Shown here piece by piece: positions 1,097-62,865 of a stretch of 64,000 bases of DNA. Source of the stretch: Aporrectodea caliginosa. Its lineage: Eukaryota > Annelida > Clitellata > Crassiclitellata > Lumbricidae. Every line of letters begins with the position of its first letter. The stretch's first letter is position 1. Both the position numbers and the translations under genes were made by a program. The DNA lies in contig JACEVL010000155.1 in NCBI GenBank assembly GCA_020284085.1, forward strand, positions 340,501 to 404,500, written 5' to 3'. The notes below the pieces were generated by a model. It was not told the origin of the DNA. It did no database searches and was given only the letters and a program-made list of their open reading frames with translations.

Positions 1097-1540
1097 GGCC
1101 AAATGGGCAACAGGGGCCTCCAGGGCCTCCGGGATCAACTGGAAATACTGGCTCATCAGGTGCAAAAGGTTCTTCAGGTGTACCTGGACCCTTAGGTCCA
1201 TCTGGACAGCCCGGGCAGTCTGGACCTCCTGGGCCTTCAGGGCCACAGGGACCAACAGGACCAGCTGGTCCTGTAGGTCCAGCTGGAGGTTCTGGCGGAG
1301 CTGGGGCAACGGGTTCAGTTGGACCAACAGGACCTACTGGACCAAGTGGACAACAAGGAGAAAAAGGCTTTCAGGGACCACAAGGAGGTCCTGGTCCAGT
1401 TGGGGGTGCTGGATCTTCTGGGTCTCCTGGACCAACTGGTCTTCCAGGACCATCTGGTCCCCCAGGTGGGCTTGGTCCAAGTGGACCAAAAGGACCTGTA
1501 GGTCCTCCTGGCTCAGCTCCAGGTCAACCTGGATTCCCAG
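1097..1540 (+). CDS. collagen exon 1 of the window (444 bp)
   Basis: The acceptor is ttgcag|GG and the donor CCAG|gtatgt, phase 1 to phase 1. It encodes 148 residues beginning G-P-N-G-Q-Q. One break, G-S-A-P-G at 1510-1524, adds a residue to an otherwise perfect repeat. It is probably not the gene's first exon, because it begins inside the helix. The following intron (1541-3442, 1.9 kb, the longest) carries a hAT element and a GC-rich tandem block. Confidence 0.92.

Positions 1541-62865: not shown

Follow-up and report, generated by a model that had tools for sequence, protein, structure and literature searches.

A 58-exon gene for a giant collagen, probably a chain of the annelid cuticle type

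Do the Gly-X-Y exons spread over a 64,000-base stretch of DNA (the window; 44% G+C) belong to one gene, and what kind of collagen would it encode? An earlier note on this DNA had read them as one collagen gene with neither end in the window and a rod of at least 2.2 micrometres, and had measured its length against the roughly 1,000 residues of vertebrate fibrillar collagens. The accessible text of the Alvinella genome paper of 2025 (PMC12403961) covers giant annelid chains in one paragraph, under a cuticle and tube heading and with a caveat about misassembly. It gives collagens of 8,859 residues for Alvinella and of 8,689, 8,413 and 7,719 residues for Paralvinella, attributes a collagen of this giant type to the earthworm Eisenia andrei and, as worded in that paragraph, describes siboglinid gene sets as being without collagens of this length. 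No further report of such a gene was found in the literature searched, a coverage that leaves most subscription journals outside.

Results

Gene structure and reading frame

Between positions 1097 and 62865 of the forward strand, 58 exons joined into a single Gly-X-Y frame of 7,796 residues with no stop, with 23,387 coding bases across 61,769 bases of the locus. Exons 1-8 lie at 1097-1540, 3443-3811, 4115-4465, 5374-5598, 6036-6716, 6988-7356, 8755-8979 and 9359-9706; exons 9-16 at 10517-10741, 11245-11406, 12035-12223, 12842-13417, 13941-14039, 15510-15995, 16784-17035 and 17646-17888; and exons 17-24 at 18035-18295, 19049-19336, 19610-20050, 20312-20824, 21188-21628, 22208-22720, 23107-23313 and 24139-24327. 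Exons 25-32 follow at 25574-26086, 26379-27170, 27806-28066, 28323-28502, 28835-29113, 29760-30449, 30681-31019 and 31748-32206; exons 33-40 at 32655-32942, 33222-33554, 35113-35652, 36370-37260, 37880-38084, 39221-39420, 39612-40079 and 41500-42084; exons 41-48 at 43235-43387, 44284-44733, 45199-46377, 46829-47422, 47726-48085, 48319-48552, 49402-49860 and 51145-51918; exons 49-56 at 52584-52727, 53001-53306, 54347-55057, 55584-55871, 56878-57201, 57831-58082, 58451-58801 and 59199-59441; and exons 57 and 58 at 60224-60517 and 61715-62865 (all on the forward strand).

All 57 introns were bounded by GT..AG, and both the frame and the Gly register were kept at every junction. The independent rebuild thus gave the same counts as the earlier note, which had claimed 58 GT..AG exons in one frame of about 7,796 residues. 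Intron sizes ranged from 146 to 1,902 bases (median, 618), with no gap of intergenic size, and exon sizes from 99 to 1,179 bases (median, 343.5). Every one of the 57 internal exon starts fell inside a codon: 56 introns interrupt a Gly codon between its first and second bases, and the sole phase 2 intron (intron 37, 38085-39220, forward strand) split a Lys codon as AA/A with the register kept. Exon lengths were multiples of 9 bases in 49 of 58 cases and multiples of 54 in five. The nine exceptions to the 9-base rule were six exons in which an imperfection inserts or drops residues (exons 1, 5, 8, 30, 31 and 57), the two exons beside the phase 2 intron, and exon 58. Exons 19-22 (19610-22720) alternated in length (441, 513, 441 and 513 bases), the value 513 recurring in exon 25, and no above-control similarity accompanied this alternation in the whole-chain ungapped comparison.

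In a six-frame scan, all runs of at least five Gly-X-Y triplets except five were on the forward strand, and runs of at least eight triplets numbered 64, compared with none in each of 50 mononucleotide shuffles. The chain search for exons, in which only phase 1 junctions were permitted, returned 63 pieces; ten exons were refined by hand, five of them as joins across helix imperfections, giving 58. Because of this restriction to phase 1, splice signals were also tested on the raw Gly-X-Y runs. The base preceding the first G of a run was A in 57 of 58 cases, compared with a frequency of 27% for A over the whole window. GGT was the final Gly codon in 49 of 58 runs, compared with 33% of all Gly positions in the joined frame. 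Splice sites of the forms AG/G and G/GT require both.

Pfam Collagen (PF01391) was matched in all three exon stretches scanned. Among them were exon 43 (45199-46377; E = 1e-62), which is the longest at 1,179 bases or 131 unbroken triplets, and exon 58 (61715-62865; E = 2.1e-59), the last exon found. The hallmark of the Collagen superfamily, a Gly-X-Y repeat capable of triple-helix formation, was present. A PDB search with exon 43 returned 34 distinct sequences with E up to 0.001 and collagen I on top; these identify it as a collagen and nothing narrower.

Helix imperfections and composition

The chain comprised 2,592 Gly-X-Y triplets. Nine short imperfections interrupted them, every one within an exon and at least seven residues away from any junction. 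The longest unbroken run was 2,280 residues. Runs accounted for 7,773 residues, leaving 23 of the 7,796 outside (the raw run sum, 7,776, counts three residues twice where a triplet misses a residue). Three imperfections were one residue short: GQGEK in exon 5 (6584-6598), GVGPQ in exon 31 (30833-30847) and GVGVI in exon 57 (60448-60462). Residues were added in exon 1 (one extra in GSAP, 1519-1521), exon 8 (VP as two surplus residues, 9493-9498), exon 45 (AVIAER between triplets, 48040-48057) and exon 30, where VTAPKPPK (30029-30052) formed the longest non-collagenous insert at eight residues. In exons 23 and 26, HNN (23223-23231) and APS (27053-27061), respectively, stood in place of a GXY triplet (all on the forward strand).

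At the X position the most frequent residues were Pro (approximately 28.1-28.2%), Ser (12.0%), Gln (11.8%), Ala (10.6%) and Asp (9.8%). At the Y position of the 2,592 triplets, Pro (22.1%) was followed by Thr (17.4%), Gln (13.0%), Ser (10.9%) and Ala (10.0%). Thr was therefore the second most common Y residue; a sample of collagen I (121 triplets, part of the sequence) had 2.5% Thr and 31.4% Pro at Y. The joined frame contained no Cys, no Trp, two His, eight Met and 15 Tyr, and the unmodified mass of the part of the chain in the window was 688 kDa. Gly-Asp/Glu-Lys/Arg triplets were in excess (152 observed vs. 37 expected from separate frequencies), compared with 29 observed and 37 expected for Lys/Arg-Gly-Asp/Glu. 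RGD occurred 12 times.

Composition changed along the chain. Leu, Ile, Val or Tyr at X climbed from 3% to 22% over tenths of the chain, and Gln at X dropped from 13% (peak, 18%) to 4%. All 15 Tyr (residues 5,357-7,771) lay in the last third, the first at residue 5,357, and 14 of them, from residue 6,251 onward, in the last fifth; bulky side chains rose in the same direction, and exon 58 lies in this helix end richer in hydrophobic residues and Tyr. In a search for the D-period (78 triplets), the top peak of each of nine residue tracks was matched in more than 5% of 300 block shuffles (smallest fraction, 0.057, for the charge track), and in none of the tracks did power at 78 triplets reach the mean. 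This null result is weak because the test lacked a fibrillar positive control.

Ends of the gene

No convincing exon was seen in the flanks at 1-1096 or 62893-64000, and no globular terminal domain was read within 1097-62865. Exon 1 (1097-1540) is probably not the first exon of the gene, so that the earlier placement of the 5′ end outside the window stands as a likely one. The same claim for the 3′ end became uncertain. Downstream of the final GLP (ending at 62865), the frame continues with VCTQMINQ and meets a TAA at 62890-62892; positions 62866-62892 of the forward strand are either the start of a phase 0 intron (GTATGT) or an eight-residue tail with its stop codon, and the tail would hold the only Cys of the chain.

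As a donor site, the end of exon 58 scored 2.1, compared with leave-one-out scores from 1.4 upward (median, 8.5) for the 57 internal donors, whose lowest in-sample score was 3.4; GT dinucleotides scoring at least 2.1 made up 24.6% of those in the window. This donor model is biased, since the split Gly codon dictates that the exon ends in G. Scored by its intron bases only, GTATGT at 62866 was strong, with 38 of 57 introns scoring lower and six equal, and only 2.0% of GT dinucleotides in the window reached its score. A single ATTAAA was found at 63343. We lean slightly toward a phase 0 splice at 62866 rather than a true C terminus. That the coding 3′ end lies in the window, with the chain stopping at 62890-62892 after one Cys and carrying no C-terminal globular domain, is the less probable reading. 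If it were correct, the hydrophobic, Tyr-rich helix end would itself start folding and cross-linking, and the layout of split Gly codons and non-repetitive sequence would indicate that annelid giant collagens arose apart from the fibrillar 54-base plan.

Repeats and mobile elements in introns

Intron 13 contains a mariner-like element (14270-15263, forward strand) with a transposase ORF of 183 aa at 14472-15023, which matched Pfam DDE_3 at 28.7 bits (cut-off, 28.6) and is presumably truncated relative to the usual transposase size. The element is flanked by perfect, identical inverted repeats of 229 bases (14270-14498 and 15035-15263) and looks like a young insertion. Mariners of such appearance are animal-type, and this ORF together with spliceosomal introns fits an animal source. 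On the reverse strand, an ORF of 140 aa at 48911-49333 had nothing significant in Pfam; we take it to resemble the terminal part of a LINE reverse transcriptase. Tandem repeats were found in intron 15 (17247-17391; 26-base array, 5.6 copies, 98% matches), in intron 39 (40232-41157; arrays based on CTAATCGATTAG) and in intron 56 (59761-60165), where a minisatellite with the 15-base unit TGTCCTCTTCATGTA (26.6 copies) is crossed by several long open frames. ARAGORN reported no tRNA in the window, and there were no Rfam matches at gathering scores.

Discussion

Identity of the chain

The locus probably encodes a single alpha chain belonging to a giant collagen of the annelid cuticle type, with most of the triple-helix region in the window. 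We favor this reading because length, Thr at the Y position and the absence of Cys all fit it. At 0.286 nm per residue, 7,796 residues give a predicted 2.23 micrometres within the window, which bears out the earlier estimate of at least 2.2 micrometres and lies above the 2 micrometres per chain that characterize annelid cuticle collagens. Purified annelid cuticle collagen is approximately 2.4 micrometres long. A rod of that length needs about 8,390 residues, of which the window would hold roughly nine tenths if the complete chain resembles the known giant ones. Vertebrate fibrillar collagens, with which the earlier note compared the chain, are an unsuitable standard; the length is real but not unprecedented, since annelid collagens of 7,719-8,859 residues had already been reported (PMC12403961, accessible text). 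Those chains, from Alvinella pompejana and Paralvinella spp., are likewise Gly-X-Y proteins; if all helix, the alvinellid lengths correspond to 2.2-2.5 micrometres. Such giant genes presumably encode cuticle collagen.

Purified annelid cuticle collagens (Gaill et al. 1991, 1995; Mann et al. 1996) resemble the present chain in a very long helix, a Y position in which Thr is prominent and a Gly content of approximately one third. A review (PMC11766948, accessible part) also describes their helix as very long and gives them globular domains, whereas none was read within the window. They are known as proteins, whereas our chain is known from DNA alone, from which hydroxylation, glycosylation and the trimer cannot be read. 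In our chain Thr is prominent at Y without exceeding Pro (17.4% vs. 22.1%). This order is contrary to the dominance of Thr in the Riftia work of Mann and colleagues, whose 1996 title names glycosylated Thr in stabilizing positions as the trait of the cuticle collagen of that vent worm. For Pro at Y, our 22.1% is close to the values given in PMC12403961, as far as accessible, for P. pandorae (21.7%) and E. andrei (21.5%).

An unlikely but reasonable alternative is that the chain belongs to a giant collagen from a different invertebrate phylum, or from some annelid tissue other than cuticle, such as the basement membrane, mesenchyme, tube or egg coat. It draws some support from Pro at X, which at 28.1% is below all five giant entries in table 1 of PMC12403961 (33.1-40.3%), a loose comparison because the counts in that table are too high for chains of the lengths given. 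(The repeat counts there include 5,698, whereas 8,859 residues allow 2,953 triplets.) It also gains from the near blindness of Gly-X-Y identity: an identity of 42% is expected even between unrelated in-register stretches of similar composition. For this reason we discarded as uninformative the matches to one locus among genome contigs (44% identity in the best segment) and to two viral contigs (47% and 46%). Against it, the only proteins of such length met in the literature examined are annelid (PMC12403961, accessible text), and the Thr-rich Y position and the absence of Cys match cuticle collagen.

Two other families were considered and rejected. Fibrillar collagens (types I-III and kin; PMC2852846, accessible part) also have a long Gly-X-Y helix and exons that are mostly multiples of 9 bases. 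Their helix, however, consists of approximately 338 unbroken triplets, whereas ours has 2,592 with nine imperfections, and their exons are 54-base-based and begin with an intact Gly codon, whereas only five of our 58 are multiples of 54, all 57 internal starts fall inside codons and every intron but one splits a codon for Gly. No exon for a COLF1 C-propeptide was seen in 62893-64000, a stretch inspected without a profile and beyond which the gene may run on. Nematode cuticle collagens (PMC11766948, accessible part) are alike in name and tissue type only; they have short, interrupted blocks flanked by Cys, whereas this giant helix has no Cys in 7,796 residues.

One gene or several

That all 58 exons form one giant collagen gene is near certain, because the junctions keep frame and register, introns are small, there is no stop and inserts are at most eight residues long. 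The claim of a single gene in the earlier note is thus supported, with a single transcript predicted across the exons. It is very improbable that a smaller collagen gene has been lengthened by misassembly or by recent repeat expansion, although PMC12403961, in its accessible text, voices a misassembly doubt about its own genome models and many exons here contain 18- or 27-base tandem stretches in two to four copies. No stop or frameshift was found over the 23,387 coding bases, and the best ungapped internal match (five triplets) scored 21.1, compared with 16.8-22.0 in 15 block-shuffled controls; since internal similarity was at control level, the length did not come from recent long duplication, whether in the genome or in the assembly. 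Least credible of all are several adjacent collagen genes with their own starts and stops read as one: tandem genes could share exon phase by descent and small terminal exons might hide in introns, but all 57 junctions hold frame and register across introns of just 146-1,902 bases, the joined frame has no stop, and its long parts are mutually dissimilar, unlike tandem gene copies.

How the protein might work

If the chain is a cuticle collagen, the epidermis would secrete three such chains as a rod of about 2.2-2.5 micrometres, and these rods would pack side by side into cuticle fibers. Because the 7,796 residues include no Cys, a terminal domain would have to bring the three chains together and set their register, or else a short tail lying beyond the helix or at its border. 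The helix would be stabilized by Pro at X and Y and by Thr, probably O-glycosylated, at Y, with a further contribution from Gly-Asp-Arg/Lys triplets. Nucleation, lateral contact or Tyr cross-links would most likely be located in the 3′ fifth, with its bulky side chains and Tyr.

Significance

The locus looks like another giant annelid-type collagen, impressive yet of a known sort, and the gain is a gene resolved exon by exon. Such a gene, without long internal copies, answers at this locus the misassembly caveat that accompanies the giant collagens in PMC12403961, as far as its text is accessible. It also suggests that gene finders may fragment genes of this kind, since 58 low-complexity exons span at least 62 kb. 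The predicted chain supplies peptides for matching against purified cuticle, and the intron layout, unlike that of fibrillar collagens, can be used for tracing the origin of the helix. For the biology of these proteins, it offers a natural test of how a triple helix 2 micrometres long attains its register.
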